A stretch of DNA of 64,000 nucleotides, taken from positions 496,001 through 560,000 of the forward strand of contig JAMLIK010000003.1 in the NCBI GenBank assembly GCA_023954195.1, written 5' to 3'. The DNA is from Xanthobacteraceae bacterium. Its GTDB lineage: Bacteria; Pseudomonadota; Alphaproteobacteria; Rhizobiales; Xanthobacteraceae. A model generated the notes under the pieces. That model saw nothing but the letters and a program-made list of their open reading frames with translations. It made no database searches and was not told the DNA's origin. Position 1 is the first letter of the stretch. Each line of letters begins with the position of its first letter. The translations under genes and the position numbers were made by a program. Positions 15,438 to 36,327 of the stretch are shown piece by piece.

Positions 15438-15598
15438 ATACAAGACACGAACGAAAAAGAACGGGCGAAAGCCTCGGCCGGTCCGGCATACGAAACGGGG
15501 GAGGAGCCAATGACGCAACGCGCGCTTGCGTGTCGGGGAAATCGGCGGCCCTCGCGGCCTGCTCACGGAACATTCCAGTCAATAAAAGGACCAGAGCC

Positions 15599-20234: not shown

Positions 20235-21134
20235 ATGCCGATAGATCTGAGCGCGGACTTCCTGAAGCGGCGGCCGGCCAATTTCCGGCCGATGACGCCG
20301 ATCCAGTTTCTGCGACGTGCCGCTGACGTATTTCCGGAGCGCACGGCCGTTGTTCACGGCGACATCACGTACACCTGGCGCGAGCATGAGCGCCGCTGCC
20401 GAAGGCTGGCGTCTGCCCTGAAAAGCAGCGGCGCCGGCGAAGGGGACGTTGTCGCGATCCTGTGCCCCAACACGCCCGCCATGCTGGAGGCTCACTTCGG
20501 CGTGCCGATGGCGGGCGCAATCCTCAACACGCTGAATACCCGGCTCGATGCCGCCGCCATCGCCTTCATCCTCGAACATTCCGAAGCCAAGGTCTTCATC
20601 GTCGATCGCCAGTGGAGCGATGTTGCACAGGAAGCGTTATCGAAACTGGCGGCGCGTCCTCTCGTCGTACACATCGACGATCCCTCCGCCGATGGTGGCG
20701 AACTGATCGGCGATCTCGACTACGAGGCGTTTCTGAAGCGGGGCCACCCGGACGACGACACGGCGTGGCCGACCGATGAATTCGATGCGATCACGCTCAA
20801 CTACACCTCCGGCACCACCGGAAATCCCAAGGGCGCGCTCTACCATCATCGCGGTTGTTACCTGAATACGTTGGGACAACTTGTGCATCATCATCTGAGC
20901 AGCGATTCCGTCTATCTCTGGACGCTGCCGATGTTTCACGTCAACGGTTGGTGTTTTTCGTGGGGCATCGCCGCCGTCGGCGGCACGCATGTTTGTCTGC
21001 GGAAGGTTTTACCGACCGAAATATTCGCTTCCATCGATGGCCGATCGCCTGGTTTGATGCTGGAAAAGGCGTTTCTCGGGCCAAATGAGAGGCGCGCATT
21101 GTTGCGTCCCGCCGGTTCTCATGCTCTTTCCTAG
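20235..21134 (+). pseudogene. Truncated acyl-CoA synthetase (AMP-binding protein), N-terminal half only
   Basis: A 299-codon frame. The first 260-270 residues match medium/long-chain acyl-CoA synthetases: start MPIDLSADFLKRRPANFRPM, P-loop-like A3 motif TLNYTSGTTGNPKGALYHHR, and LPMFHVNGW. Homology stops abruptly after the CLRKVLPTEIFASID segment (near 21045). The last 30 residues look random, and the whole C-terminal half of a normal 540-residue enzyme (A5, A8 and A10 motifs with the catalytic lysine) is missing before the MarR gene. I read it as a deletion remnant without ligase activity. It lies 56 bp after the FadH-like gene, on the same strand. Confidence 0.8.
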
Positions 21135-21171
21135 CCGAGGATTTCAACACCCACTTCGGAAGTGCGATCAG

Positions 21172-21741
21172 ATGGCTCCGGTGAAGCATTCGCGAAAGGC
21201 CGTGGCAGCGGAAGCCTCCGCTGGCGAGGCCACAGTGCCCGTTCAAGGAACCCAGGATCGCGTTGCCGATCACCTGAGCAATCGGATTTTCTTCCGGCTG
21301 TTTCAAGTCGCGAACACGCTTCAGAAGCAGGCCGTGAAGGAACTGGGCGTCACCACGGTGCAATGGGCGGTTCTCGGCGCTTTGTCGGACCCCAGGCCGA
21401 CTTACGGCATGTCGGTCGGAACGCTGGCGGATTTCCTCGTCGTCAGCCGTCAGAATCTGGATGGCGTTCTGAAGCGTCTTGAGCGTGACGGTCTTGTCGA
21501 GCGGGTGACCGATCCGGAGGATCGCCGCGCGCGGGTCGTGCGGCTCACGCCGGTCGGCTTCGCGTTCTGGAAGGAGTTGCGCGAACGCATTTTTCAATTT
21601 TACGATCAGGCGGTCAGCGGATTCAAATTCGACGATCGTGTCGCGCTCGCCCACTATCTCAACGCGCTCCAGGGGCAGTTGATGAATGTTCGTCTGGAGC
21701 CGCGGCGACGGGAGCGGAAGAAGAACGATCGGCGCCCCTGA
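21172..21741 (+). CDS. MarR-family transcriptional regulator
   Basis: A 189-residue winged-helix regulator. An N-terminal extension of about 30 residues precedes the MarR core: helix FFRLFQVANTLQKQAVKELG, recognition region SVGTLADFLVVSRQNLDGVLKRLERDGLVERV and the wing with TDPEDRRARVVRLTPVG. GGAAG about 10 bases upstream supports the ATG at 21172; the frame is open further left only through the truncated synthetase. MarR proteins next to CoA ligases often sense aromatic or acyl-CoA intermediates (BadR, HcaR types), so it may once have controlled the FadH/synthetase operon; this is inference. Confidence 0.87.
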   Translation: MAPVKHSRKAVAAEASAGEATVPVQGTQDRVADHLSNRIFFRLFQVANTLQKQAVKELGVTTVQWAVLGALSDPRPTYGMSVGTLADFLVVSRQNLDGVLKRLERDGLVERVTDPEDRRARVVRLTPVGFAFWKELRERIFQFYDQAVSGFKFDDRVALAHYLNALQGQLMNVRLEPRRRERKKNDRRP

Positions 21742-22216: not shown

Positions 22217-22255
22217 ATGTTGATTTCAAGGACAAAGTGTCCTCCGCGAGATCAG
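22217..22255 (+). promoter_or_regulatory. Activator-binding sites (UAS) for the binding-protein gene
   Basis: ATGTTG-N7-GGACAA (22217-22235) matches site 2 upstream of the ligase operon (ATGTTG-N7-GGACAT) in both arms and spacing. A second, weaker copy, GTGTCC-N7-GATCAG (22237-22255), has one perfect half. Centres lie about 80 and 60 bp upstream of the -24 element, a normal range for NtrC-type enhancers. Confidence 0.6.
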
Positions 22256-22306: not shown

Positions 22307-22321
22307 TGGCATCCAAGTTGC
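22307..22321 (+). promoter_or_regulatory. Sigma-54 (-24/-12) promoter for the binding-protein gene
   Basis: TGGCAT (22307-22312), five bases, then TTGC (22318-22321) place the invariant GG and GC 12 bases apart, close to the RpoN consensus TGGCACG-N4-TTGC. It lies 35 bp before the ATG at 22356 and just downstream of the dyad sites at 22217-22255. Confidence 0.75.
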
Positions 22322-22355
22322 TATGCAGCTTCCAGTGCTCATGAGGGAGGCGCAT

Positions 22356-23594
22356 ATGCCAAGAATTCTACGAGGAAATCTGCCGGGATATCTCACCACC
22401 GTGTTAACCGCCGCAGCCATGTTGGCGGCGGCGCCTGCTCACGCTCAAATATCTGATGATGTTGTGAAAATCGGCGTTCTCGCCGACATGTCCGGGCCCT
22501 ATGCCGATATTCAGGGGCCCGGCGACGTGGTCGCGACCAAAATGGCGGTTGAGGATTTCGGCGGCAAGGTCAACGGCAAGCCGATCGAGGTGGTTTCCGC
22601 GGATGTCCAGTTGAAGGCCGACGTCGGCGCGGCAATCGCCCGTCGATGGTACGATACCGAAAAAGTGGATGCCATTTTCGGCCTCGGCACCTCGGCCGTC
22701 GCGCTTGCCGTCCAGGCGATCGCCCAGGAGAAGAACAAGGTTTCGATCGCCACCTCGGTCGGATCCACGGCGTTGACGGGGAAGGCGTGTTCACCCAACG
22801 GGATTCACTGGGTCTACGACACTTACGCGCTGGCCAAGGGGACCGCGACCGCGATGATGAAGCAGGGCGGCGCGGACAGCTGGTTCTTTTTGACCGCCGA
22901 CTATGCTTTCGGTCATTCGTTGGAGCAGGATACGGCCGACATCGTCAAGAGGAACGGGGGCAAGGTGATCGGCAGCGTCCGGGCGCCGGTCAATAGCCCC
23001 GACTATTCATCTTTCATACTCCAGGCGCAGGCGTCGAAGGCTCAAGTTATCGGGCTCGCGGTCGCGGGCGCTGACGTCATCAACTCGATCAAGACGGCGG
23101 CGGATTTCGGTCTTGTCGCCGGAGGTCAAAAGCTGGCCGGTCTTCTGGTGCTGATTACGGATATTCACGCTCTCGGTCTGAAGACGGCCCAGGGGCTGAT
23201 GTTCACCGAAGCCTATTACTGGGATCAGAACGACGAAACGCGCGCCTTCGCCAAGCGGTTCGCCGAGCGCCATGGCGGACGGCCGCCGACGATGTTTCAG
23301 GCCGGGATCTACAGCGCCGTCGCGCATTATCTGAAGGCGATCCAGGCGGCTGGTTCCGACGAGGCCAGGACTGTCATCGCGACGATGAAGAAGATCCCCG
23401 TCAACGACTTCATGACCAAGAACGGCAGCATCCGCGAAGACGGGCGAATGATGCGGGACATGTACCTGCTTCAGGCCAAAAAACCTTCGGAATCGAAGGG
23501 AGAATGGGATCTGATGAATGTCGTTGCGACCATCCCCGCCGCGGATGCGTTCCGGCCTCTCTCCGAAAGCGAGTGTCCATTGATTAAGAAGTAG
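22356..23594 (+). CDS. ABC transporter substrate-binding protein, branched-chain amino acid (LivJ-like) family
   Basis: A 412-residue periplasmic binding protein. A signal peptide precedes APAHAQ, then the mature start DVVKIGVLADMSGPYADIQG is typical of the Peripla_BP_6 family, whose members also bind aromatic, alicyclic and other carboxylic acids. GAGGGAGG 6 bases upstream fixes the ATG at 22356. No permease or ATPase gene is nearby, so it must dock with an unlinked Liv-type importer. A sigma-54 promoter and enhancer-like dyads precede it, shared with the catabolic operon at 25505, which suggests it captures the substrate of that pathway. It ends convergent with the activator gene. Confidence 0.88.
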   Translation: MPRILRGNLPGYLTTVLTAAAMLAAAPAHAQISDDVVKIGVLADMSGPYADIQGPGDVVATKMAVEDFGGKVNGKPIEVVSADVQLKADVGAAIARRWYDTEKVDAIFGLGTSAVALAVQAIAQEKNKVSIATSVGSTALTGKACSPNGIHWVYDTYALAKGTATAMMKQGGADSWFFLTADYAFGHSLEQDTADIVKRNGGKVIGSVRAPVNSPDYSSFILQAQASKAQVIGLAVAGADVINSIKTAADFGLVAGGQKLAGLLVLITDIHALGLKTAQGLMFTEAYYWDQNDETRAFAKRFAERHGGRPPTMFQAGIYSAVAHYLKAIQAAGSDEARTVIATMKKIPVNDFMTKNGSIREDGRMMRDMYLLQAKKPSESKGEWDLMNVVATIPAADAFRPLSESECPLIKK

Positions 23595-23639: not shown

Positions 23640-25289
23640 TCAGGTCTGTTCGGTATCCTCGATCGCGGCCAGCTTCTTGTAAAGGAACGAGCGCGAGATG
23701 CCGAGGCGTGCGGCGGCTTTCTTCTTGTTGCCGCCGCAGGCCGCGATGGCTTCCTTGATCTGTTCATTCTGAACGTCGGAGATGACTTTCTTCAGGTCCC
23801 GCGAGTTATGCGCCGGCGCCGTGACCGCCAGTCCGAGGGGCTTTTCGGGTCGCCTCGGCGTTTCCGACAAATCCTGAACGCCGATCGTGATCCCGTCCGA
23901 GAACACGAACGCGCGTTCGATTTCGTGTTGCAATTGCCGGATGTTGCCGGGCCACGCGCGCTCGGCGAGATCGGTCAGGGCATCGCCGCTGATCCGGGGT
24001 GTCGGTCGGGCGTGCCGGTAGGCGATCTCTTGAAGGAACTTGTCGACCAGCAGCGGGATATCGTCGATCCGCTCGCGCAGCGGTGGGACTTCGATGACAA
24101 TCGGGGAGAGGCGATAGAATAGGTCGAGACGGAATCCACCGCTTTCCACCATCGACTGCAAGTCCTTGTTGGTGGCCGAGACCAGGCGAAAATCGACCGG
24201 GCGCGAACGGTCGCCGCCGATCCGTTCGATGATCTTGTCCTGCACCACGCGCAACAGCTTCGCCTGAACGTCGAGCGGCATGTCGCCGATCTCGTCAAGA
24301 AAAATCGTGCCCCCCTCGGCCTGCTCGAATTTACCTTTGCGCCCTTTCTTGTCGGCGCCGGTGAAGGCGCCGGGCTCATAGCCGAACAGTTCCGATTCCA
24401 CGAGGTTGTGCGGAAGCGCGGCGGCATTGACATTAATCATCGGCCGGTCGCGGCGTGGACTGAGCTGATGCAATGCATGAGCGACGAGTTCCTTGCCGGT
24501 GCCGCTTTCGCCGCGGATCAGAACCGGAATCTCAAGCGACGCGACCTTGACGATCTGCGCGCGTAGCCGCTGGACGGCGGGGCTCTGTCCGATGATTTGT
24601 TCGAGTCCGTAGTCGCGGGCGCGGAGCGTCGCTGTTTCGCGCTTGTAGAATTCGAGTTCGCCTTCAAGCGCCTTGATGCGCCGGCTCAGGGATTCAAGCT
24701 GTTGAGGCCCCTTGAACATGACGCGTCCGATGGCCCCGAGCACGCGCCCATTGCGCCTGATCGGCACCCTTGAGACGACGCGTTCGGAGCCCTGCATGCG
24801 TTGAATTGCGCCGACCTCGGCTTTCCCGGTCGCGACAACCTTATGAAGCCGCGTATTCTCGATGACTTGCTCGACCGGCTGGCCATTTCCCTCGCCAAGC
24901 TTGAGGCCGAAAAACGCTTCGTGAATCGGCGAGATATAGACAAGACGCGCCTCGTCATCGACGATTGTCATGGCATCGAAGGGGTCCGTCAGCAGATACT
25001 GGATGATGTCCCATGCGAAGCTGACGCTTCCGATGAAGTGCAGCAAGGCGTCGCCCGGCGCGCGGCTGATGACCAGCAGTTCTCCTGATTCCGCTTCCGC
25101 GAGCAGGATCGCGTAAGCGCGACGATCCAGATTGAGCGTCGTCAGGCGCGCCTCCCGCAGGTCGCCCATCCACATGCGATCGGCGGCGAGCGCCATGATC
25201 CGGGGATCGGAGCCGAGGCCGGTCGAAAAAACGGCTTGTCCCTCCCGGTTGAGGAACGCCACGCCGGCAATCTGTATGTCGTTCGGCAT
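23640..25289 (-). CDS. Sigma-54-dependent activator (PAS - AAA+ - Fis-type HTH)
   Basis: A 549-residue enhancer-binding protein. A PAS-like sensor domain (about residues 104-194, PFDAMTIVDDEARLVYISPI) follows a poorly conserved N-terminal segment. A coiled linker leads to the AAA+ domain with Walker A GESGTGKE (about 260-267), the sigma-54 contact loop GAFTGA (about 307-312), and Walker B GGTIFLDEIGD. The C-terminal Fis-type HTH (NKKKAAARLGISRSFLYKKL) binds DNA. An in-frame start at 25322 would run through the perfect dyad at 25296-25314, so I prefer the ATG at 25289. It lies between two sigma-54 promoters that share its probable binding motif. The signal it senses is unknown. Confidence 0.9.
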   Translation of the reverse strand: MPNDIQIAGVAFLNREGQAVFSTGLGSDPRIMALAADRMWMGDLREARLTTLNLDRRAYAILLAEAESGELLVISRAPGDALLHFIGSVSFAWDIIQYLLTDPFDAMTIVDDEARLVYISPIHEAFFGLKLGEGNGQPVEQVIENTRLHKVVATGKAEVGAIQRMQGSERVVSRVPIRRNGRVLGAIGRVMFKGPQQLESLSRRIKALEGELEFYKRETATLRARDYGLEQIIGQSPAVQRLRAQIVKVASLEIPVLIRGESGTGKELVAHALHQLSPRRDRPMINVNAAALPHNLVESELFGYEPGAFTGADKKGRKGKFEQAEGGTIFLDEIGDMPLDVQAKLLRVVQDKIIERIGGDRSRPVDFRLVSATNKDLQSMVESGGFRLDLFYRLSPIVIEVPPLRERIDDIPLLVDKFLQEIAYRHARPTPRISGDALTDLAERAWPGNIRQLQHEIERAFVFSDGITIGVQDLSETPRRPEKPLGLAVTAPAHNSRDLKKVISDVQNEQIKEAIAACGGNKKKAAARLGISRSFLYKKLAAIEDTEQT

Positions 25290-25295
25290 ATTCTT

Positions 25296-25347
25296 GTGTC
25301 CACGTCGAGGACACTTCAACATGGTCGTATGTTGGATGCAAGGACAT
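25296..25347. promoter_or_regulatory. Two enhancer dyads (UAS) upstream of the CoA-ligase operon
   Basis: Site 1 is the perfect dyad GTGTCC-N7-GGACAC (25296-25314). Site 2 is ATGTTG-N7-GGACAT (25329-25347). Centres are 33 bp apart, about three helical turns, and lie roughly 136 and 103 bp upstream of the -24 element at 25440. Site 1 also abuts the activator start, which suggests autoregulation. The same arms recur at 22217-22235. Confidence 0.7.
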
Positions 25348-25439
25348 CAATTCACACGGAAACACACAAGAGGCCGAGCATTCGCTCTAATGCGCTGTGA
25401 AACCTCGCAATTTGCGTCGCTGACATCAACGGCGACAGC

Positions 25440-25454
25440 TGGCACGCAAGTTGC
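25440..25454 (+). promoter_or_regulatory. Sigma-54 (-24/-12) promoter of the alicyclic-acid-type operon
   Basis: TGGCACG (25440-25446), CAAG, TTGC (25451-25454) match the RpoN consensus exactly, with GG and GC 12 bases apart. Transcription should start near 25466, about 40 bp before the ligase ATG at 25505. Confidence 0.85.
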
Positions 25455-25504
25455 GTATCTCGGCCCAGGCATCGCGGCGCGATGCGATACCCGATGAGAT
25501 CGAC

Positions 25505-27118
25505 ATGCGACCATTCCTTACGCTTCACTCCCCGGCGAACGCGCGGCGCTACTACCAGCAGGGACTCTGGAAGGACGAAACGCTCTACGGCCTCTTGAGC
25601 AGGCATGCCGATGAGCGCCCCGGCGACATCGCGCTTCAGGATGGGCGCCGCTCGGTGACATGGGCGGATTTGCGCGGCTGGGCGGACGGTGTCGCCGGCA
25701 ACCTGCGCGAGTTCGGCTTGAGCGGGGGAGACCGGGTTTCGATCTGGATGTCCAATCGCATTGAAGCGATCGTGATGTTCCTCGCCTGCGCACGGGAAGG
25801 CATTGCCTGCAATCCCTCGCTTCACAAGACTTTCACCTGCGCGGAAATCGTCGAATTGCTGTCGTCGTTGTCGGCCCGCGCGTTGCTGACCGAGGCGGGC
25901 TGGGGCGCGGACCGCGCGCGCGTCGATCTCGATGCGATGCTGGTGAAGCTGCCGCATCTCAAGATGGTATACGCGCCGGAAACCCTACCTGGCCCAACGA
26001 TCAACGCGGCGCCGCCATGCGCCGATCCTGACAAGGTGGTGTATTTGGCATTTACGTCGGGAACCACCGGTTCGCCGAAATGCGTCATGCATTCGGATAA
26101 CACGCTGCTCGCAAACGCTCGCGATCTGGTGGCCGACTGGCGGCACGGACCGCAAACCGTGCTGCTGTCGCTGTCGCCGCTGTCGCATCACATCGCCTGG
26201 GTCGGGATTGCGCAATGGCTGGTGACTGGCGGACGCTTCGTCACTGACGATCCACCGGCCGGCATGAGCCGGATCGATTGGATTCAGGCGACGAAGGCGA
26301 CTTACGTTCTCGGTGTTCCGACGCACGCAATGGACGTTCTCGCCGAGCAGCAGCGGACGGGGCAGCGGCTTGGCGATGTGTCGGTCTTTTACATGGCCGG
26401 ATCGCCGATCCCGCCGGTCACCGCCGCCGCCTTTCTGGAACAGGGAATCAAGCCGCAGAATATTTACGGCATGACGGAGAATTCGTCGCATCAATACACC
26501 CATCCGGACGACTCCGCCGATGTCATCGTCCAGACCTGCGGTCGTGGCGGGCCCGCCTATGAGGTGCGGTTGTTCGACCCGGCGGACTCCGACAAGGAGG
26601 TGAAGCCCGGCGAGGTCGGGCAGATTGCCGGCCGTGGCGCCGCGTTGATGCTGGGTTACTTCGATAACCAGAGCGCGACCGAATCCAGCTTCAACAAGGA
26701 CGGCTGGTTTCTGTCCGGCGATCTCGGCGTGGTGGACGAAGCGGGCAATCTTCGCATTGAGGGCCGCCTCAAGGATCTGATTATCCGTGGCGGCCATAAC
26801 ATCTATCCCTCCCATATCGAAGCGGCGGCGGTGCGTCACAAGGATGCCGGGCGGGTCGCCGCGTTCCCGGTGCCTGATGATCGTCTGGGCGAACGGGTCT
26901 GTATCGCCGTGTCCGGAACGATCGAGCCGGACGAGTTGCTGCGGCACCTGCGCGAGCAGGGAATTTCGAAATACGACATGCCGGAATATTTTGTCAGGGT
27001 GGACGAATTTCCGCTCACGGCGAGCGGAAAGATTCTCAAGCGCGAATTGACGCTGTGGGTGCGTCGTGGAGAATTGGCGCCGCTGCCCATTCGCGGGCCG
27101 ATCGCGGCTGCGAGCTAG
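25505..27118 (+). CDS. Acyl-CoA ligase, cyclohexanecarboxylate-CoA-ligase-like (AMP-forming)
   Basis: A 537-residue ATP-dependent CoA ligase. It begins MRPFLTLHSPANARRYYQQG, which resembles AliA-type cyclohexanecarboxylate ligases. Adenylation motifs are present: LAFTSGTTGSPKCVMHSD (A3), IYGMTENSSHQYTHP (A5), GWFLSGDLGVVDEAGN (A7) and RLKDLIIRGGHNIYP (A8). The A10 lysine lies in FPLTASGKILKREL. First gene of a roughly 10.8-kb operon, 50 bp after a sigma-54 promoter. It should activate the imported acid as its CoA thioester, the entry step for all later CoA-dependent reactions. The acid may be alicyclic or aromatic; exact substrate unproven. Confidence 0.88.
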   Translation: MRPFLTLHSPANARRYYQQGLWKDETLYGLLSRHADERPGDIALQDGRRSVTWADLRGWADGVAGNLREFGLSGGDRVSIWMSNRIEAIVMFLACAREGIACNPSLHKTFTCAEIVELLSSLSARALLTEAGWGADRARVDLDAMLVKLPHLKMVYAPETLPGPTINAAPPCADPDKVVYLAFTSGTTGSPKCVMHSDNTLLANARDLVADWRHGPQTVLLSLSPLSHHIAWVGIAQWLVTGGRFVTDDPPAGMSRIDWIQATKATYVLGVPTHAMDVLAEQQRTGQRLGDVSVFYMAGSPIPPVTAAAFLEQGIKPQNIYGMTENSSHQYTHPDDSADVIVQTCGRGGPAYEVRLFDPADSDKEVKPGEVGQIAGRGAALMLGYFDNQSATESSFNKDGWFLSGDLGVVDEAGNLRIEGRLKDLIIRGGHNIYPSHIEAAAVRHKDAGRVAAFPVPDDRLGERVCIAVSGTIEPDELLRHLREQGISKYDMPEYFVRVDEFPLTASGKILKRELTLWVRRGELAPLPIRGPIAAAS

Positions 27119-27129
27119 TGGCGGCGCAA

Positions 27130-28257
27130 ATGGCACGGTTGCCTCTGAAAGATATCCTCGTGCTGGATTTCAGCACTTTGCTGCCGGGTCCGTTCGCAAC
27201 CTTGATGCTGGCGGAGGCGGGCGCCACGGTAATCAAGGTCGAGCGGGCCGGAAGCGGCGACGAAATGCGCGGCTATGAGCCTAGGCTCGGCGCTGACAGC
27301 ACCAACTTCCACCTCTTGAACGTCGGCAAGGACAGCATCGTCGTCGATTTGAAAGCCAAGGATGCGTTTGAGCGGATGAAGCCGTTGGTGGCGCGCGCCG
27401 ATGTGGTCGTCGAGCAGTTTCGCCCCGGCGTCATGGACCGCGTTGGCTTCGGCTATGAAGCCCTGCGCGCCATCAATCCGAAGCTGATCTATTGCGCGAT
27501 CACCGGCTGGGGGCAGAGCGGCCCGAAATCGGCGGTCGCGGCGCACGATCTCAACTACATGGCGGACGCCGGCCTGCTGGGCCTCAGCCGCGGCGGCGAC
27601 GGCGCGCCGGTGGTGCCGCCGGTGCTGGTCGCCGATCTCGCGGGCGGCGCGTATCCGGCGGTGGTCAACATCCTTCTCGCCCTTCTGCATCGCGACCGCA
27701 CCGGCGAGGGCGCTTATCTCGATATCGCGATGGGCGAGAATCTTCTGCCGCTGGCCTATTGGGGACTCGGAAACGGATTTGTCGCCGGGCAATGGCCGCG
27801 TGGTGGCGACGCGCTGGTGACCGGCGGCAGTCCGCGTTACCAGATCTATCGCACGTCGGACGGCCGCTACCTCGCCGCCGCCCCGATCGAGGATCGCTTC
27901 TGGCACAATTTCTGCGAACTGATCGGGCTCGCGCCGGCGTTGCGCGATCCGAAAGCCGATCCCGGCGAGGCGACGCGCGCCGTCGCCGACATTGTCGCGG
28001 GACGCTCCGCCGAGGCATGGATGAACACCTTCAACGGACACGATGTCTGTTGCTCGATCGTCGCCAGCTTGCAGGAGGCCGTCGCCGATCCGCATTTCGC
28101 CGCGCGCGGCGTATTCTCGCGCAGGATCGAAGTCGAGGGAATCTCGGTCCCCGCGCTGCCGACCGCGATAGCGGCGTGCTTCCGCAGCAACGTCGCGCCG
28201 GCCGCGCCGCGTCTCGGCGCGCAAACCGATGCCTGGCTGAAAAAGGAGGCGATTTGA
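27130..28257 (+). CDS. CoA-transferase, family III (CaiB/BaiF-like), first copy
   Basis: A 375-residue enzyme of the formyl-CoA transferase / BaiF family. The opening LPLKDILVLDFSTLLPGPFA and ATVIKVERAGSGDEMRGY are typical; the catalytic aspartate that forms the mixed anhydride is expected in PPVLVADLAGGAYPAVVN. It may move CoA from a product or succinyl-CoA to the incoming acid, bypassing ATP use by the ligase. A GTG at 27118 overlapping the ligase stop is an alternative start; the ATG at 27130 gives the usual N-terminal length. Its stop overlaps the next start by one base (TGATG). Confidence 0.85.
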   Translation: MARLPLKDILVLDFSTLLPGPFATLMLAEAGATVIKVERAGSGDEMRGYEPRLGADSTNFHLLNVGKDSIVVDLKAKDAFERMKPLVARADVVVEQFRPGVMDRVGFGYEALRAINPKLIYCAITGWGQSGPKSAVAAHDLNYMADAGLLGLSRGGDGAPVVPPVLVADLAGGAYPAVVNILLALLHRDRTGEGAYLDIAMGENLLPLAYWGLGNGFVAGQWPRGGDALVTGGSPRYQIYRTSDGRYLAAAPIEDRFWHNFCELIGLAPALRDPKADPGEATRAVADIVAGRSAEAWMNTFNGHDVCCSIVASLQEAVADPHFAARGVFSRRIEVEGISVPALPTAIAACFRSNVAPAAPRLGAQTDAWLKKEAI

Positions 28258-29252
28258 TGCGTGCATATCACGTCGTCGAATTCGGGCCGCCGTCCGCCCT
28301 CCAGTTGAAAGAAGTCGACGATCTCATGCCGGGCGAAGGCCAGATCGTGGTCGATGTCGCGGCGGCCGGGATCAATTTTCCCGATACGCTGGTCGTGTCG
28401 GGTCGCTATCAGATTTTGCCGCCTCGTCCGTTCGTGCCCGGCAAGGAGTTGGCGGGCGTCGTGCGCGCGGTGGGCGCGGGTGTGACCGGCTTCGCGCCGG
28501 GCGACCGGGTGCTGGCCCAGCTCGAACACGGGGCGTTCGCGGAGCAGGCCGTGGTGAATGCCGCCGACGCATTTCATTTGCCGGACGGATTGGGATTCGC
28601 CGACGCGACCGCGCTGGGTCTGGTCTACCAGACGGCGTATTTCGCGCTGCTTGACCGCGCGAATTTGCGCCCCGGCGAGACGGTGCTGGTCGGCGGCGCG
28701 GCCGGCGGCGTCGGCGTCGCGTCGGTGCAACTGGCGAAGGCGTTCGGCGCGCGCGTGCTGGCCGCCGTCCGCAAGCCGGATCAGGTCGAATTCGTTCGCG
28801 CGCAGGGGGCCGATGCGGTGATCGACGTCGGCGGGGCCAATCTGCGCGACGATTTGCGCGCGCAGGTGCTGGCGGCGACGGATGGCCGTGGCGTCGACGT
28901 CATCGTCGATCCGGTCGGCGGAGCGTTCTTCACCGCGGGCTTGCGCGCGCTGGCGTGGTGCGGGCGGCTGGTCGTCGTCGGCTTTGCCGGCGGCGACATT
29001 CCCTCCGTCAAGGCCAACTATTTGCTGGTGAAGAATATCAGCGTCAGCGGCCTGCAATGGAGCGACTATCGCGAGCGGGTGCCGGAGCGGATGGCCGAGG
29101 CGCAGGCGGATATCTTCCGGCTGTGGCGCGCCGGTGCGGTGCGTTCTCCCGTCACCCAGACATTCGCTTTGGAAGAACTGCCAACGGCGCTCGAACTGAT
29201 CGAAAAGGGACGCATCCGCGGCAAGGCCGCGCTTATCGTCAAGGATGCTTGA
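28257..29252 (+). CDS. Quinone-oxidoreductase-like zinc-free MDR (NADPH-dependent reductase)
   Basis: A 331-residue medium-chain dehydrogenase/reductase. GroES-like N-domain (AAAGINFPDTLVVSGRYQ, FVPGKELAGVVRAVGAG) and NADPH-binding Rossmann domain with GGAAGGVGVASVQLAKAFGA. The cysteine and histidine ligands of zinc alcohol dehydrogenases are absent, which places it with QOR/enoyl-reductase-like members. AAAGGAGG lies just upstream, inside the end of the previous gene. In this operon it may reduce an enone or enoyl-CoA intermediate, a step not needed in the classical cyclohexanecarboxylate route. Substrate unknown. Confidence 0.85.
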   Translation: MRAYHVVEFGPPSALQLKEVDDLMPGEGQIVVDVAAAGINFPDTLVVSGRYQILPPRPFVPGKELAGVVRAVGAGVTGFAPGDRVLAQLEHGAFAEQAVVNAADAFHLPDGLGFADATALGLVYQTAYFALLDRANLRPGETVLVGGAAGGVGVASVQLAKAFGARVLAAVRKPDQVEFVRAQGADAVIDVGGANLRDDLRAQVLAATDGRGVDVIVDPVGGAFFTAGLRALAWCGRLVVVGFAGGDIPSVKANYLLVKNISVSGLQWSDYRERVPERMAEAQADIFRLWRAGAVRSPVTQTFALEELPTALELIEKGRIRGKAALIVKDA

Positions 29253-29255
29253 TAG

Positions 29256-30533
29256 ATGGATTCGCAATCCCAAAAACTTCCTTTGAATACGGCGCCGCCG
29301 TGCGATGCCTTGCCATTGAGAATGCCTGGCGCCGGGTTTCAATTGCTGGCCGGCGTTCGCGTGGTCGATCTCACGACGTCGGTGGCGGGGCCATCCGGCA
29401 CCATGCTTTTGGCCGACATGGGCGCCGAGGTCGTGAAGATCGAGCGGCCGTCCGGCGGAGACGATGCGCGCTCATGGGGGCCGCCATTTCTCGCCGGCGA
29501 ATCGCTGTGGTTCGCGGCGGTCAACCGCAGCAAGAAAAGCGTCGCGCTGGATTTTTCCGACGCGGCGGGGCTGAAGCTGCTTTACGACCTGATCCGGCAG
29601 GCCGACATGATTTTCGTCAATCTGCCGCCGCGCGTCGCGCGCAAGCTAAAGGTGGACGCGGATACGTTGCGGGAGGTGCGTTCGGATCTGATCTACGTAT
29701 CGATCACCGGTTTCGGCCTGACCGGCGAGCGCGCCGACTGGACCTGCTACGACCTGATCGCCGAGGGCTATTCCGGAATCATGGACCTGACCGGTGCCGC
29801 GGGCGGCGACCCGCAAAAGGTCGGAGCGCCCGCCGCTGACATGCTCGCCGGGCAGGATGCCGCCTTTGCCGCCGTCGCCGCGTTGCATGATCGCCGTGCG
29901 ACCGGCAAGGGCCATGTGATCGATGTCGCGCTGGTCGATTCCATGACGCGCCTGTTGTCGTGCCGCCTCATGTCGTATCTCGGCTCGGGCGAACTGCCGA
30001 CGCGTTCCGGCGGCACCGACAGCGTGATCGCGATCTATCAGGCGTTCGAAACCGCCGACGATCCGATCGTGCTGGCGCTCGGCAATGACAACCTGTGGCG
30101 GCGTTTCTGGGCGGCGGTCGGCGATCCGGACTATGCCCGAACGCCCGGCCTGCAAAGCAATGCCGAACGTCGTCAGTGTCGCGCCGGCATTGTTGACCGG
30201 ATCGCGACGCTATTGCGCGGCAAGCCACGAAGTCATTGGCTTGGCCTGCTGCGCGAGGCGCGAATCCCGGTGGGGCCGATCAACGATCTCCGGCAGGTAG
30301 CGGCCGACGACGCCATGCGGGCGCGGGGAATGTTCTATCGGCTCGCATCCTCTGACGGGCGCGTCGTGCCGCAGGTCAATTGCGGCATCGTCATTGACGG
30401 CGAACCCGGCATCGCGCGAGGCGCGCCGCCCAGGCTCGGCGAACACACTGAAAGCGTGTTCGCCGACTGGCTCGGCATCGATCATGGCAACCGCGGCGAC
30501 GTTATCGCTCAGGATTCACACGAGAGGACATGA
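29256..30533 (+). CDS. CoA-transferase, family III (CaiB/BaiF-like), second copy
   Basis: A 425-residue paralogue of the enzyme at 27130, with a 30-residue N-terminal extension before [20 protein letters not shown]. The catalytic aspartate is expected in [18 protein letters not shown]. It also has the [17 protein letters not shown] core. Sequences of the two copies are clearly different, so they may have separate substrates or form a heteromer, as in some bile-acid and benzylsuccinate systems. It sits 3 bp after the MDR gene and ends 1 bp before the next start. Role in the pathway is inferred only from the operon. Confidence 0.85.
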
Positions 30534-30534
30534 C

Positions 30535-31314
30535 ATGAGCTTCAATACGATCATCTACGAGGAGGATGGTCCGATCGGCACCATCACCCTGAACCGGCCC
30601 GATGACGGCAACATGTTCACGGTGGAGATGTGTCATGAAATTCGCGATTGCATCAACGCGATCCGGCGCGAAACGCGCACGCGGGTGATTGTGATAACCG
30701 GCGCGGGCGAAAAATTCTTCTGCATCGGCGGCCGTAAGGAGGGCATGGAGAAGACCACGCTCTATGCCGGCGTTCTCCCGACCCTCGAAATGTACGAATC
30801 GATCGATCGCCTGCAAAAGCCGGTGATCGCCAGCGTCAACGGCTACGCGGTCGGCGGCGGCCAGGTGCTGCACGTTGTCTGCGATCTGACGATCGCCAAG
30901 GAAAGCGCGGTGTTTCGCCAGGTCGGCCCGATGATGGGTTCGTTCGATGCCGGTTACGGCACTTGGTATCTTGAGGACCTGATCGGCAAGAAGCGCGCCA
31001 AGGAGATGTGGTATCGCAATCCAAAGATTTCGTCGCATGAAGCGCTGGAGATGGGCCTCATCAACAAGGTTGTTCCTGACGACAAGTTGAAGGAGGAGAC
31101 GCGCAAGTTTGCGCTTGAGATCGCGGATCGCGGCCCGTTCGCGCTGGCTTCGATCAAGGCCGCGTTCAACGCGCGCCACGGCGGCGTATCCGGCCTCGCG
31201 CGAGTGGCGCACGATCTGTTGCTGCGACCCTATCTCGACACCGACGAAAGCCACGAATTGTCCGCGTCCTTCGCCGCCAAGCGCCGGCCGGATAGCGCGA
31301 AGTTCGGGAGGTAG
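30535..31314 (+). CDS. BadI/MenB-like crotonase: probable 2-ketocycloalkanecarboxyl-CoA hydrolase
   Basis: A 259-residue crotonase. The oxyanion segment [19 protein letters not shown] and the aspartate-bearing [21 protein letters not shown] resemble MenB and BadI rather than enoyl-CoA hydratases. The [19 protein letters not shown] tail is also BadI/MenB-like. BadI opens 2-ketocyclohexanecarboxyl-CoA by reverse Dieckmann cleavage to pimelyl-CoA, and a ring-opening role fits the ligase, dehydrogenase, hydratase and SDR beside it. GAGAGGA 6 bases upstream fixes the ATG. MenB (naphthoate synthase) is the alternative, unlikely because no other menaquinone genes are here. Confidence 0.78.
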
Positions 31315-31318
31315 CGCC

Positions 31319-32086
31319 ATGGTGGTCGAACTTTCCAAAGTCGACGACCATGCGTTGCTGCGACTCAATCGGCCCGAGGCGTTGAACGCGTTGTCGTTCG
31401 CGATCCTGCGCGACATCGGCGCGGCGCTGGACGAGGTCGCGGCCTGGAAGGTGCGCGCCCTCGTCGTCACCGGCGCCGGAGAAAGGGCGTTCTGCGCCGG
31501 CGCCGACATCAAGGAACTACGCGGCCGTCCGATGATCGAATGCAAACGCGGCGCCGAGTTCGGGCAAGCGGTGTTCGCCAAGCTGGAGCGGCTGCCGTTC
31601 CCGTCGGTCGCGGCGATCAACGGCTTTGCGTTCGGCGGCGGCCTTGAGCTGGCGCTGGCCTGCACCTTCCGCGTGGCGACACCGAACGCAAAGCTCGGGC
31701 TGCCGGAAATCAAGCTCGGCCTCATTCCCGGATATGGCGGAACGCAGCGCCTGCCGCGTGTGGTCGGCGAAGCGAGAGCGCTCGATATGATTCTTCTCGG
31801 GCGAACCGTCGGCGTCGAGGAAGCGGAGCGCATCGGCCTCGTTCACCGCATCGTCACGGGAAGCGCGGTGGATGGTGCCGTGGCACTGGTGCGTGAGTTC
31901 TCGTCCTACAGTCTGCTTGCGGTTGGCTTCGCTCGCGATGCCGTGACGCGGGCGTTGGATGTTCCAATCCATGAGGGCCTGAAGATCGAGGCCGATCTCT
32001 CGACGCTGGCGTTCGGCACGTCGGATGCCGCCGAGGGCATGGCGGCGTTTTCCGAGAAACGGAAGGCGATTTTCACCGATGCGTAA
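31319..32086 (+). CDS. Enoyl-CoA hydratase (BadK-like)
   Basis: A 255-residue crotonase with both catalytic glutamates of a true hydratase: one in [16 protein letters not shown] and one in [21 protein letters not shown]. The oxyanion region [16 protein letters not shown] is standard. GGGAGG (31306-31311), overlapping the end of the previous gene, fixes the ATG at 31319. In the inferred route it would hydrate the cycloalkene-carboxyl-CoA produced by the acyl-CoA dehydrogenase, giving the 2-hydroxy compound used by the SDR. Its 3' end overlaps the SDR start by 8 bp. Confidence 0.87.
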
Positions 32087-32786
32087 AGGACAGGTCATCG
32101 TCACCGGCGGAAGCCGGGGTATCGGCGACGCCATCGTGCGGGAGCTTGACCGGCGCGGCTTCGATGTCGTTGCGTTGTCGCGTAGTGGGCAAGCCTCGAC
32201 TGGTCTCGGCATGGTCTGCGACATGACCGACGAGCGCTCGATCGCCGAGGCGATCGCCAATGTCGGTGCGCGAGGGCCGATCATCGGTCTCGTTAACAAC
32301 GCCGGCGCACACGAGGCGAAGCCGAGCGCCGAACTTTCGCTGGCGGAATTCGAGGCGGCGATGCGTTTGAATGCGTCGGCGGTTCTGGTGACCAGCCGGG
32401 AGGCTTATCCCTATCTTCGCCAGTCGGGAGACGGCTTGATCGTCAATATCGGTTCGTTCTTCGATCGGTTGGCGGTGGCCGGAAATCTGTCTTACTGCGC
32501 GTCCAAGGCCGCGGTCGCCGCCATCACGCGCTGTCTTGCATCCGAGTGGGCACGGGACGGCATCCGCGTGCTCGACGTGGCGCCGGGTTATATCGAAACC
32601 GACCTCAATCGCGACTTTCTGGCCAGCGAGAAATCCAGAAGCTGGCTCAAGCGCCGTGTTCCCGTCGGCCGCGCGGGCCGGACCGAAGAAGTCGCGCGTC
32701 TGGTCGGCGCGTTGTTCTCCGAGAACATCGCCTTCCTCACGGGCGAGACGATCTACATCGACGGCGGGCAAGGGACCAACCTCTGA
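32079..32786 (+). CDS. Short-chain dehydrogenase (BadH-like, 3-hydroxyacyl/2-hydroxycycloalkane-CoA type)
   Basis: A 235-residue classical SDR. Cofactor motif TGGSRGIGDAIV, structural NNAG, catalytic serine in VNIGSFF and catalytic SYCASK (Tyr-x3-Lys) are intact, with a FabG-like C-terminus ending FLTGETIYIDGGQG. It should oxidise the hydroxyacyl-CoA to the beta-keto thioester that the BadI-like enzyme then cleaves. It overlaps the hydratase gene by 8 bp and the dehydrogenase gene by 1 bp (TGATG). FabG-type function in fatty-acid synthesis is a less likely alternative given the operon. Confidence 0.86.
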   Translation: MRKGQVIVTGGSRGIGDAIVRELDRRGFDVVALSRSGQASTGLGMVCDMTDERSIAEAIANVGARGPIIGLVNNAGAHEAKPSAELSLAEFEAAMRLNASAVLVTSREAYPYLRQSGDGLIVNIGSFFDRLAVAGNLSYCASKAAVAAITRCLASEWARDGIRVLDVAPGYIETDLNRDFLASEKSRSWLKRRVPVGRAGRTEEVARLVGALFSENIAFLTGETIYIDGGQGTNL

Positions 32787-33952
32787 TGAAGATATTCGAC
32801 GCACTTGAACAGGAGCGAGGCTGGAGCGAGGACGAGCGGCTTCTGCTCGATCAGGTCGATCGATTGGCAACCGAGCTGATCGCCCCCAATGCGGCCAGGA
32901 TCGACGAAGCCGCTGCATTTCCTTGGGAGAATGTCGAGGCGATCAATCGTCTCGGCCTCAACGCGATCTTCGTTCCGGAAGCCTATGGCGGCGCGCCGAT
33001 GTCGTTCCGGCTGTATCTCGCCGTGGTTCGCCGCATCGCCGAGGCATGCGCGTCCACCGGCATCATCTACGCCACCAACTTCCATGCGATGAAGCCGCTG
33101 ATCGAGTTCGGCTCCGAGGAGCAGAAGGCGCGGCTGCTGCCGCGCATCGCGAAGGGCGGGCTGGCGGCGCTGGCGATCACCGAGGAAAGCGCGGGTTCGG
33201 ACGCGACCGGGATGAAGACACGGTTTCAACCGGACGGCGACGAGATCGTGATCGACGGCGCGAAGATCTTCATCACCAACGGCGATGTCGCCGATCGCCT
33301 TCTTTTGTTTGGCAAGCATTCCAAGATAGCCGATCCTCGTCAGGCGATTTCCGTGCTTGTCGTTGAGAAGGGAACCCCTGGGCTTGAGGTGCTCGGCCTT
33401 GAAAAGAAGATGGGTCATCGCGGCTCATCGACGGCTGCGCTGCAATTCGACGGTTGCCGCGTGCCGGCGGCGAATTTGATCGGACGGCCGGGCGACGGCC
33501 TGTCGATCCTGCTCGCGTCGCTCAACCGCTCGCGCCCGAGCATCGCCGCGCACGCCATCGGCATCGCGACGGCGGCGTTCAAGGACATGACGGCCTACAT
33601 GAACGAGCGCAAGCAATCCGGTCGGCGCATCATCGATTTCCAGGCCAACCAGTTCATGCTGGCGGATCTCGCCACCGATCTGGCGATGGCCGAACTCTGG
33701 CTCGATCACCTTGCCGGCCGGATCGACGCCGGCGCGCGGGATTTCGGCATCGAGGCGTCGATGGCCAAGATGCGTGCATCCGACGTCGCCAACCGCATCG
33801 TCACCGAGGCGGTGCAGATGCACGGCGGCTACGGATATTGCAACGATTTTCGTGTGGAGCGGCTAATGCGCGACGCCAAGATCACCCAGATCTGGGAAGG
33901 AACGAACCAGGTCCATCGTCAACTCATCGGACGGAGTTTCGCAGCCAAATGA
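32786..33952 (+). CDS. Acyl-CoA dehydrogenase (AliB-like)
   Basis: A 388-residue FAD enzyme. Family motifs are clear: ALAITEESAGSDATGMKTRF (FAD/substrate site), KIFITNGDVADRLLLF, and the C-terminal signature MHGGYGYCNDFRVERLMRD with AKITQIWEGTNQVHRQLIGR. The catalytic base of this subgroup is usually the glutamate in IWEGT. It would introduce the first double bond next to the CoA ester, as AliB does in cyclohexanecarboxylate degradation, passing electrons to ETF. The start overlaps the SDR stop by 1 bp and its end overlaps the next gene by 4 bp. Confidence 0.88.
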   Translation: MKIFDALEQERGWSEDERLLLDQVDRLATELIAPNAARIDEAAAFPWENVEAINRLGLNAIFVPEAYGGAPMSFRLYLAVVRRIAEACASTGIIYATNFHAMKPLIEFGSEEQKARLLPRIAKGGLAALAITEESAGSDATGMKTRFQPDGDEIVIDGAKIFITNGDVADRLLLFGKHSKIADPRQAISVLVVEKGTPGLEVLGLEKKMGHRGSSTAALQFDGCRVPAANLIGRPGDGLSILLASLNRSRPSIAAHAIGIATAAFKDMTAYMNERKQSGRRIIDFQANQFMLADLATDLAMAELWLDHLAGRIDAGARDFGIEASMAKMRASDVANRIVTEAVQMHGGYGYCNDFRVERLMRDAKITQIWEGTNQVHRQLIGRSFAAK

Positions 33953-34830
33953 CAAGAGCGATCAAAACTGTCGGCGTCTGCGGCGCGGGCGGCACGATGG
34001 GCGCGGGCATCGCGTTAGTGGCTGCACGCGCCGGGTTCAAGACCATCTCCTTCGATATGTCGGAAGGCGCGTTGGACAAAGCCGCGAAGCAATCGGCCGA
34101 TTTTCTCGACAAGTCGGTCTCGCGCGGGAAATTGAGCGGCGATGGACGTAACGCGATCGTCGCGGCGATGTCGCGCACGACCAGCATCGACGGGCTTCGC
34201 GATTGCGACCTGGTGATCGAAGCGGTGTTCGAGGACCTTTCGATCAAGCGCGATTTGCTCGGCCGCCTCGATGACGCGTGCGCCGAGGACGCGATCTTCG
34301 CATCCAATACCTCGACGCTGTCGATCACCGAGATCGCATCCGGCTCCAAGCACCCGGAGCGTGTGGTGGGGATGCACTTTTGCCTGCCGGCGCAACTGAT
34401 GAAGCTGATCGAGATGTCGCCGGGAATTTTGACCTCGGAGGCGACGTTCAGGACGGCGTGGCAATGGACCGAGGCCTGCGGCCAGATGCCGGTGAAGACA
34501 CAAGACAAACCGGGCTTCATCCTTAACGCGCTGCTGGTGCCGTTCAACAACGATGCTATCCGTGCCGTCGAGGCCGGCGTCGCCACGCCCGCCGATATCG
34601 ATCGCGCTATCAAGGCCGGTCTTGGCTACAAGATGGGGCCGCTGGAACTGCTCGACCTGATCGGCCTCGATACGCAGGTGCGCCTCTGCGAGGCGTTCTA
34701 TCCGATCACGCTCGACCCGCGCGCGGCGACGCCGCCGCTGTTGCGGCGGATGGTCGCCGCCGGCCTGCTGGGACGAAAATCCGGGCGCGGCTTTTTTGAC
34801 TACCAGGGCAATGCGATGTTCGGAGCGTAA
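33949..34830 (+). CDS. 3-hydroxyacyl-CoA dehydrogenase (PaaH/HbdA-like)
   Basis: A 293-residue two-domain NAD+ enzyme. The N-domain has VGVCGAGGTMGAGIALVAARAG; the active-site segment reads GMHFCLPAQLMKLIE, where the HFFNP motif of typical enzymes has Leu in place of Asn. The helical C-domain (KPGFILNALLVPFNNDAIRA, DRAIKAGLGYKMGPLELLDLIG) is normal. It overlaps the dehydrogenase by 4 bp. It probably oxidises the linear hydroxyacyl-CoA after ring opening, in a beta-oxidation round. The missing asparagine could shift specificity. A partner C-domain protein follows immediately. Confidence 0.85.
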   Translation: MTRAIKTVGVCGAGGTMGAGIALVAARAGFKTISFDMSEGALDKAAKQSADFLDKSVSRGKLSGDGRNAIVAAMSRTTSIDGLRDCDLVIEAVFEDLSIKRDLLGRLDDACAEDAIFASNTSTLSITEIASGSKHPERVVGMHFCLPAQLMKLIEMSPGILTSEATFRTAWQWTEACGQMPVKTQDKPGFILNALLVPFNNDAIRAVEAGVATPADIDRAIKAGLGYKMGPLELLDLIGLDTQVRLCEAFYPITLDPRAATPPLLRRMVAAGLLGRKSGRGFFDYQGNAMFGA

Positions 34831-34835
34831 GCATC

Positions 34836-35486
34836 ATGAAATATGCATTCGAGACAGCCGGAGAGAGCCGCTCGTTTCCGAACGGGGACGCTTTCCTGAA
34901 CGGTGCGGTCGGTCGCGATCAGGCCGATGTCGTGATTTACAGCGGCCCGCGGCTCGCGCCGGATCCGCGCAAGACGGTGATTCTGATTGAACTCGGCGAG
35001 GAATGTCTCGGCGATCACATCGACGATGATAACCCCGCGCATGCGAATGTCTTGGGGTTCGCCCGCTACCGCAACGGTGACGATCCTCCCTCGCGGCTGA
35101 TCGAGTTGGTTCGGCATCCGAAAGCAAGCGAGGCTGCGATTGCCGCGGCGCGTGACCTCTTTGCGGCGGCGGGGCTTGAGGTCTCGCTGTGCAACGATCA
35201 GGTCGGACGCATCATCAATCGGCTGGTGGTTCCAAAGTACAATGCGGCGCTGCGCTTTCTCGATGAAGGATTGGCGACCCAGGCCGATATGGACCTGACC
35301 TGCAAGTTGGGTCTCGGTTATCCGGACGGCCCGATCGAGCGCGTCGTTCGTGGTGGCCTTGCGCCTTACTATCAGGTCAGCAAGGGCCTGTTCGAAGCGT
35401 TCGGAACGTCGGCTTTCGCGCCGCCGCGTCGCGCGCGGATCGCATTCAAGCAGGCGACCACCGGCACCGCGCCGGCCGAACGGTGA
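34836..35486 (+). CDS. Stand-alone 3-hydroxyacyl-CoA dehydrogenase C-terminal-domain protein
   Basis: A 216-residue protein. Residues about 120-205 match the helical dimerisation/substrate domain of 3-hydroxyacyl-CoA dehydrogenases (VGRIINRLVVPKYNAALRFL, DLTCKLGLGYPDGPIERVVR). The first 110 residues lack a GxGxxG dinucleotide motif and look like a degenerate Rossmann-type half. It begins 5 bp after the complete dehydrogenase, so the two may form a heteromer, analogous to the second half of duplicated PaaH-like enzymes. Not an obvious pseudogene: the frame is intact and the spacing operon-like. Catalytic activity alone is unlikely. Confidence 0.7.
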   Translation: MKYAFETAGESRSFPNGDAFLNGAVGRDQADVVIYSGPRLAPDPRKTVILIELGEECLGDHIDDDNPAHANVLGFARYRNGDDPPSRLIELVRHPKASEAAIAAARDLFAAAGLEVSLCNDQVGRIINRLVVPKYNAALRFLDEGLATQADMDLTCKLGLGYPDGPIERVVRGGLAPYYQVSKGLFEAFGTSAFAPPRRARIAFKQATTGTAPAER

Positions 35487-35520
35487 CATCAATTTCATAC
35501 AACAACATTCGGAGCGACGC

Positions 35521-36327
35521 ATGAACTACAGCGATTTCCAGCATCTGAAATTCGACCTGAGGCCCGACGGCGTTCTTCTTGTGACACTGAATCGTCCCGA
35601 GGTCATGAATGCGACCAACGCTCGGCTGCATTGGGAGCTGACAAAAATCTGGGATGTGATGAACCATGATCCTAAGGTGCGGGTCATCGTGGTTACGGGC
35701 GCGGGCGATCGCGCATTCTCGGCGGGCGGCGATCTGTCTTGGATATCCGAAACCGCCGGTCATCCGGATCGGGTCGCGGAAAATCTCAAGGAAGCTGGCG
35801 ATATCGTCTTTAATATGCTCGCATGCGAGAAGCCGATAATTTCAGCGATAAATGGCGTGGCAGTAGGAGCGGGCCTTGCCGTCGCTTTGATGGCGGATAT
35901 CAGCATCATGGCGGAGGAGGCCAAGATCACCGATGGCCACGTCCGGATCGGCGTATCGGCGGGTGACCACGCCGTGATATCGTGGCCGCTTCTGTGCGGG
36001 ATGGCGAAGGCGAAGTATTATCTGATGACTGCCGAGTTCGTCGACGGCAAGGAAGCGGAGCGGATCGGTCTTGTGAGCCTGTGCGTGCCGCGTGCACAGT
36101 TGCTCGACAGGGCGATGACCGTCGCGAGCAAGCTGGCGAATGGAAGTCAGCATGCGATCCGCTATACCAAAAGATCGTTGAATAATTGGATGAGGAGTTC
36201 GCAATCGGCATTTGATGCGTCGCTGGCTCTCGAAATGCTGTGCTTCATGGGCGACGATATCAAGGAGGGACTGGCCGCGGTGAAGGAGAAGCGCGAGCCG
36301 CGCTTTCCGTCAGCAAGGGATCATTAG
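35521..36327 (+). CDS. Crotonase-family protein lacking both hydratase glutamates
   Basis: A 268-residue enoyl-CoA hydratase/isomerase superfamily member. The CoA-binding oxyanion loop [16 protein letters not shown] is normal. Where true hydratases have two catalytic Glu residues, this one reads [16 protein letters not shown] (Ala) and [19 protein letters not shown] (His), with a nearby Asp. So it is probably not a hydratase; a hydrolase, isomerase or lyase role is possible. GGAG (35511-35514) marks the ATG. Last gene of the sigma-54 operon; its TAG stop lies exactly at the left end of the IS element. Confidence 0.8.

Follow-up and report, generated by a model that had tools for sequence, protein, structure and literature searches.

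The window analysed here is a 64,000-nucleotide stretch of a Xanthobacteraceae bacterium genome (positions 496,001 to 560,000 of contig JAMLIK010000003.1, assembly GCA_023954195.1), and our subject is the intergenic region at 25290-25504 (window coordinates throughout), which separates a leftward gene for a sigma-54 activator from a rightward catabolic operon dependent on coenzyme A (CoA) (Table 1). The region contains a −24/−12 element, TGGCACG-N4-TTGC, which carries both the invariant GG and the invariant GC, is the sole match without mismatch in the window, and predicts a transcription start for the operon at about 25466. Upstream of it lie two inverted repeats (dyads) of the form TGT-N11-ACA, with centres 33 base pairs (bp) apart at about −128 and −161 relative to 25466: the distal dyad is the only exact GTGTCC-N7-GGACAC in the window and can be aligned with the same site in the closest relative (L007; such handles denote individual loci), and the proximal dyad is mismatched at two arm positions. 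An earlier, sequence-only reading had described a near-perfect sigma-54 promoter at 25440-25454 and two dyads upstream of it; both descriptions hold, the first exactly and the second with the qualification that one dyad is imperfect.

The open reading frame (ORF) of the activator opens at 25322, and its start is likely at 25289, which gives a protein of 549 residues and places the distal dyad just upstream of the start. Related activators align from this position, although this is not independent proof, because the starts of the relatives were picked as those nearest to it. The protein matches the Pfam families for the Sigma54_activat domain, the AAA lid and a Fis-type helix-turn-helix, and carries the GAFTGA motif (GSFTGA in some homologues, GTFTGA in one). 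The sequence-only reading had called it a PAS/AAA+ protein with GAFTGA: the AAA+ domain, the motif and the DNA-binding domain are all borne out, whereas the PAS assignment is weak in this protein itself (PAS_9, E 0.068, below its cut-off) and draws its support from the alignment, 20 of whose 24 members match PF00989 at E ≤ 0.1, and from a structural model. The model of residues 1-195 (mean predicted local distance difference test score, pLDDT, 86) has a PAS-like domain at about 106-190, and in a fold search it aligned over about 100 columns with the cytoplasmic PAS domain of CitA. When two-domain PAS proteins are matched to the whole modelled stretch, root-mean-square deviations are high, mostly 14-19 Å, and the first N-terminal domain therefore may be, rather than evidently is, PAS-like. 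V4R, the sensor domain of XylR and DmpR, is absent from the Pfam matches of the window activator and from the 25 of 36 families listed for the alignment. The sensor region also matched the N-terminal regions of DhaR and TyrR in the fold search, weakly (template-modelling score by query at most 0.43 among the matches listed), and the full protein falls far below the NCBIfam cut-offs for both DhaR (212.6 of 551) and TyrR (240.3 of 576). One rpoN match was found in the 4.18-Mb genome, which has sigma-54 activators at 6 places in all.

Conservation across genomes carries the case for this region. Activator homologues with E ≤ 1e-150 occur in 16 of 296 genomes of the family, at 18 places, and a −24/−12 element scoring at least 10 of 11.5 lies upstream at 17 of these places (own genome included in each count). 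A second set came from a scan of named genomes for the BadI-like gene of the operon (13 relatives aligned), from which the best 80 of 280 confirmed stretches were kept; the activator is divergently adjacent to the operon in 27 of the 80. If a promoter is called wherever a score of 10 or more (of 11.5) falls between −200 and +30 relative to the first gene, 26 of these 27 loci have one, and the remaining locus, L070, scores 9.5. Among loci without an adjacent activator and with enough upstream sequence, 7 of 45 have the promoter; of these seven, L048, L054 and L105 have an activator at another position in the locus, which leaves 4 of 42 with a promoter and no activator in the locus. This comparison, 26/27 versus 4/42, leaves out those three loci together with eight contig-end loci that have no adjacent activator. 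Matches of at least 10 also occur in L093, L115 and L121, 246-378 bp before the first gene and thus outside the position limit, and in L069, near a contig end (10.5). No common replacement regulator was seen in the upstream regions of seven loci without an adjacent activator.

The dyads follow the same distribution: TGT-N11-ACA occurs within 350 bp in 27/27 loci with an adjacent activator versus 4/42 with none, and at least two copies occur in 16/27 versus 1/42. The spacings N12 (1/27) and N10 (see below) are rare in the adjacent-activator loci; N13 (12/27) and N15 (6/27) are also raised, which we take to reflect the same palindromes extended outward. Spacing and distribution both bear on whether the operon answers instead to nitrogen or oxygen, through sites for a different sigma-54 activator (NifA or NtrC, for example). 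The upstream activator sequences of NifA, found upstream of −24/−12 promoters, read TGT-N10-ACA, with the same half-sites and one nucleotide less between them, and the genome does have further sigma-54 activators; however, N10 is found in 2 of the 27 loci against N11 in all 27, which rules out the NifA-type spacing, and the sites track the cognate activator gene, with 4 of 42 loci having them without it. Control by such another activator is accordingly very improbable.

The distances between dyads and promoters provide a further line of evidence. Within 230 bp of the promoter in 35 non-redundant loci (12 duplicates and L023, which has no promoter, were left out), we found 53 dyads in 32 loci; 18 loci have at least two, and 15 have a pair spaced by 28-36 bp. 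The dyads lie 51 to 213 bp from the −12 element, and these distances show a period of 10.5-10.75 bp (R 0.588 and 0.567), the helical repeat of DNA, versus R of 0.057 at 9.5 bp and 0.10 at 12 bp; spacings between dyads of one locus fall at 30-34 bp (15 cases), 50-55 bp (6) and 82-85 bp (3). The periodicity persists when activators are clustered at 65% identity and equal distances are merged (21 events, R 0.52, P 0.0026, peak at 10.60 bp), and likewise with clustering at 60% (18 events, P 0.018) or 70% (21 events, P 0.0021). Spacing and phase, like the motifs, the protein domains and their co-occurrence, are read directly from the sequences; helical phasing would be a requirement of an activator that loops the DNA and seems hard to explain otherwise.

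An arrangement in which the dyads serve only to autoregulate the activator gene, with the −24/−12 element activated from elsewhere, would be consistent with the position of the distal dyad just before the probable start at 25289 and of both dyads inside the activator leader. Yet the dyad-to-promoter distances hold helical phase; the binding-protein promoter described below has the same type of dyad without a divergent activator gene; and L048 (Bradyrhizobium japonicum in8p8), which has no activator at its promoter, still keeps the promoter (10.5) and a distal dyad 147 bp from it. The L048 locus has a single activator; it sits at the opposite end of the operon and is of a second type, 76% identical to the second copy in L025 and 62% to the first. 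Pure autoregulation is thus very unlikely, although the activator may in addition regulate itself, since the dyads overlap its own leader.

Taking these lines together, we regard it as highly probable that 25290-25504 is a sigma-54 control region on which the divergently encoded activator acts through the dyads. The PAS/AAA+ protein would bind the paired TGT-N11-ACA dyads on one face of the DNA, some three helical turns from each other; once signalled, it would contact the sigma-54 RNA polymerase bound at 25440-25454 and, by means of its GAFTGA loop and ATP hydrolysis, open the promoter near 25466, so that the ten-gene CoA-dependent operon is transcribed. We infer activator binding, the dependence on sigma-54 and the direction of regulation from co-occurrence, conserved spacing and helical phase, which, with rpoN present in the genome, strongly support the RpoN-dependent control by a divergent activator through two dyads that had been proposed from the window. 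On this sequence evidence, the region is a sigma-54 control module whose layout is conserved in many alpha- and betaproteobacteria, with a mechanism of known kind, for an uncharacterised CoA-dependent pathway.

Several points weigh against this interpretation. Genome-wide, the exact −24/−12 pattern occurs at 4 places versus 5 for its backwards control, with no enrichment, and TGTCC-N7-GGACA and the pattern of the second promoter (TGGCAY-N5-TTGCT) each occur at 3 places versus 2, with no clear enrichment; with counts so near those of the controls, the window by itself is suggestive only. L023, the exception in the family search, is a second copy of the activator, located in one genome at the operon's far end, and has no −24/−12 element. 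L074, L080, L096 and L100 have a −24/−12-like match at the first gene and no activator in the fetched stretch, possibly because the activator has diverged or lies elsewhere, and L070, L110 and L122 have no dyad that satisfies the stricter definition used for the phase analysis. Finally, the Fisher P for 26/27 versus 4/42 (9.6e-14) overstates the case, because the loci are mutually related and the family and named sets overlap, so that the counts are not independent, and because the score threshold and position limits were set after the promoter scores had been inspected.

Chance has to be weighed in the same light. In the window the promoter pattern with at most two mismatches has 25 matches versus 28.5 expected, and the dyad pattern with at most three has 17 versus 23.4; in 5000 dinucleotide shuffles of the 215-bp intergenic region, some perfect 6+6 inverted repeat with a loop of 3-15 bp appears in 52%, so that a single dyad is no proof. 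The same shuffles give an 11/11 promoter match with P = 0.0002, at least two TGT-N11-ACA sites with P = 0.002, and two such sites 28-36 bp apart in 0 of 5000. A fortuitous match with fortuitous repeats in a GC-rich genome would suit the near-chance frequency of the single motifs in window and genome; it is contradicted by the promoter in 17/18 and 26/27 loci and by the periodicity, and its probability is negligible. Each motif singly is weak evidence, and it is their combination and conservation across genomes that make the case.

Table 1. Coordinates of the control region, the activator gene, the operon and the binding-protein gene in the window.
Feature	Coordinates	Strand	Remarks
Second −24/−12-like element	22307..22321	+	TGGCATCCAAGTTGC; ends 34 bp before probable binding-protein start
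Dyad of second promoter, TGT-N11-ACA	22217..22235		Centre 94 bp from −12 element
Periplasmic binding protein, ATP-binding cassette (ABC)-importer type	22356..23594	+	PF13458; ORF opens 22323; start 22356 after GAGGGAGG
Sigma-54 activator gene	23640..25289	-	AAA+ with GAFTGA, Fis-type helix-turn-helix, PAS domain, possibly PAS-like N-terminal domain
Distal dyad, TGT-N11-ACA	25296..25314		Perfect GTGTCC-N7-GGACAC; centre ~148-149 bp from −12 element
Proximal dyad, TGT-N11-ACA, imperfect	25329..25347		ATGTTG-N7-GGACAT; centre 115 bp from −12 element
−24/−12 (sigma-54) element	25440..25454	+	TGGCACG-N4-TTGC, exact match
g1, acyl-CoA ligase	25505..27118	+	PF00501; conserved in operon
g2, family III CoA-transferase	27130..28257	+	PF02515
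g3, zinc-type/quinone oxidoreductase-like reductase	28257..29252	+	PF00107, PF08240
g4, family III CoA-transferase	29256..30533	+	PF02515; first operon gene in several other lineages
g5, BadI/MenB-like crotonase, candidate ring hydrolase	30535..31314	+	
g6, enoyl-CoA hydratase	31319..32086	+	
g7, short-chain dehydrogenase	32079..32786	+	
g8, acyl-CoA dehydrogenase	32786..33952	+	
g9, 3-hydroxyacyl-CoA dehydrogenase	33949..34830	+	
g10, protein with C-terminal 3HCDH domain only	34836..35486	+	Conserved beside g9
g11, enoyl-CoA hydratase	35521..36327	+	34-bp gap before; outside conserved operon

The activator very likely also drives the gene for a periplasmic binding protein, from a second −24/−12-like element, TGGCATCCAAGTTGC at 22307-22321, which matches TGGCAY-N5-TTGCT exactly; the sequence-only reading had placed the 25440 element correctly and missed this one. 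With transcription starting near 22333, the gene should begin at the ATG at 22356 rather than where the ORF opens. Of 12 sources examined, 11 yielded the gene (L036 did not); all but one of these 11 also have a comparable promoter element (9.5-11 of 11.5), and 8 have a TGT-N11-ACA dyad, which is missing in L046, L099 and L113. L113 has neither element nor dyad, and no activator in its fetched locus. These comparisons suggest that the binding-protein gene probably belongs to the regulon of the activator. A wider regulon is not supported by the other genomic places of the motifs: the other two TGTCC-N7-GGACA places have no TGGCA-N6-TTGC within their 3-kb loci, and upstream of the other two TGGCAY-N5-TTGCT places no TGT-N11-ACA occurs for about 260 bp; this test was limited and fell short of a matrix scan of the whole genome. 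Some 20 bp beyond the point where the binding-protein dyad begins, at 22237-22254, there is another site, half-degenerate (GTGTCC...ATCA), with a similar sequence in several relatives.

The operon had been described as one of 11 genes. All eleven are indeed closely spaced, g1 to g10 with gaps of −8 to 11 bp; however, ten of them are conserved and g11 is local. The ten genes are all present in 10 of 14 operon loci from other genomes (L029, with two genes in pieces, being counted), and in the remaining four the locus is cut by a contig end (L038, L041 and L042) or holds only g1 and g5 (L037). In L029 the pieces are g2 (16133-17238) and g6 (12246-13008), through frame breaks or assembly errors, and the same genome carries a second copy of the operon (L033). 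No operon counterpart of g11 exists in any of the 14 loci; the gene adjoins an insertion sequence (IS) 4/5-type transposase ORF, which lies downstream in the opposite direction (36669-37139, minus strand). Scanning 34800-37000 for terminators gave no hit, versus 1.9 expected from shuffled sequence. In the relatives L025/L045, L048 and L049 a second activator gene follows g10 instead, and so the end of the operon may be rearranged in the window; in L025 (18085-19683) and L048 (15428-17086) this paralogue has a CoA-transferase gene as its neighbour at the operon's 3′ end. Gene order varies by lineage, the promoter facing g1, g4 or g5, and the operon family occurs in Bradyrhizobium, Afipia, Cupriavidus and many other alpha- and betaproteobacteria; Bradyrhizobium mercantei (L046) and Cupriavidus necator (L084) are among those with the activator adjacent.

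The layout of the control region resembles that of the XylR/DmpR-type regulators. According to the account of these regulators in PMC6449761, they bind paired palindromes, each about 16-20 nt long, whose centres are separated by 29-42 nt (three turns for XylR and DmpR) and which in most cases lie 100-200 nt upstream of the −12/−24 element, on one side of the helix, and XylR/DmpR/HbpR/AphR-type regulators are usually encoded divergently from their targets. The paired dyads 33 bp apart, centred at about −128/−161, share this layout, as do the 28-36 bp pairs of 15/35 loci. In contrast, the sensor of the window activator is PAS-like and not of their kind, the site here is TGT-N11-ACA, and the targets are a CoA-dependent operon and a binding-protein gene.

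In gene content the operon resembles the bad-ali clusters of Rhodopseudomonas palustris and Aromatoleum sp. CIB, with which it shares the functions of CoA ligase, acyl-CoA dehydrogenase, hydratase, dehydrogenase and BadI hydrolase; in R. palustris the regulator is divergent as well. PMC9795900, in its treatment of these clusters, describes BadR as a MarR repressor in Gram-negative bad-ali clusters, most of them with a CAAN4TTG operator. No CAAN4TTG is present in 25290-25504, and BadR-type control of the region is therefore rejected. The account in that paper agrees with the remark in the sequence-only reading that the known cyclohexanecarboxylate genes of R. palustris are not described in such an arrangement. 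The models for cyclohexanecarboxylate-CoA ligase (AliA), cyclohexanecarboxyl-CoA dehydrogenase (AliB-type) and BadI score 233.5 on g1 (equivalog cut-off 792.3), 142.8 on g8 (575.35) and 218.6 on g5 (467.6), respectively, far enough under their cut-offs that the operon is not classed as bad-ali. The g5 protein is 73-98% identical to its 13 aligned relatives; its nearest known relatives are MenB and BadI, and MenB models score on it about as high as the BadI model.

These matches to g1, g8 and g5, and the aerobic use of bad-ali also mentioned in PMC9795900, would fit a diverged bad-ali cluster that exchanged BadR for a sigma-54 activator. We consider this origin unlikely: the scores lie far under the equivalog cut-offs, MenB does about as well as BadI, and the bad-ali gene set as given in PMC9795900 contains nothing equivalent to g3, g10 or the two CoA-transferases. 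The operon may nevertheless function like bad-ali. A degradation route of alicyclic type, as first suggested from the window, is plausible from the crotonase, the ligase, the two CoA-transferases and the beta-oxidation enzymes, although the bad-ali cut-offs are missed. We somewhat favour an alicyclic carboxylic acid as the substrate, its ring predicted to be opened hydrolytically by the BadI/MenB-like g5 protein. The inducer is, with similarly modest confidence, the pathway substrate or its CoA thioester; the nitrogen or carbon gating suggested in the sequence-only reading finds support in neither direction. More tentatively still, and somewhat short of an even chance, the operon family could represent a widespread, undescribed ring-acid pathway that includes its own uptake protein. 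A new family of sigma-54 activators with PAS sensors would then control it, reading a CoA intermediate and acting through the helically phased TGT-N11-ACA dyads, and the control module would be acquired, lost or exchanged as a unit with the enzymes staying constant.

Among the papers listed by searches of the open-licence PubMed Central (PMC) literature, we recognised none that describes the operon or the activator. A survey of sigma-54 regulons (PMC12316311) mentions beta-oxidation enzymes, chiefly in Bacillota, and neither Bradyrhizobium nor Cupriavidus occurs in its main text; nine candidate badI genes are named in Cupriavidus gilardii CR3 in PMC4547698. The mechanism is textbook; new leads come from the pathway, its inducer and the series of phased sites. 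The analysis proposes which regulator, sites and promoter serve an operon family, the proposed link to the binding protein narrows the search for the substrate, and the natural series of phased dyad-promoter distances offers evolutionary data on how DNA loops at sigma-54 promoters.

Further genes lie upstream of the binding-protein gene. An AMP-binding protein gene at 20235-21134 (plus strand) matches the first 242 of 384 Pfam positions, overlaps a MarR-family ORF (21085-21741) and is probably truncated. It is preceded at 18151-20178 (plus strand) by a gene for a flavin mononucleotide (FMN) oxidoreductase with a pyridine-nucleotide-disulphide domain. Homologues of the oxidoreductase (86%) and of the AMP-binding gene (85%) follow g10 in L046, and the two genes may therefore share the metabolic neighbourhood of the operon. 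An alkyl-sulfatase-like metallo-hydrolase is encoded near the cluster at 15530-17572 (plus strand).

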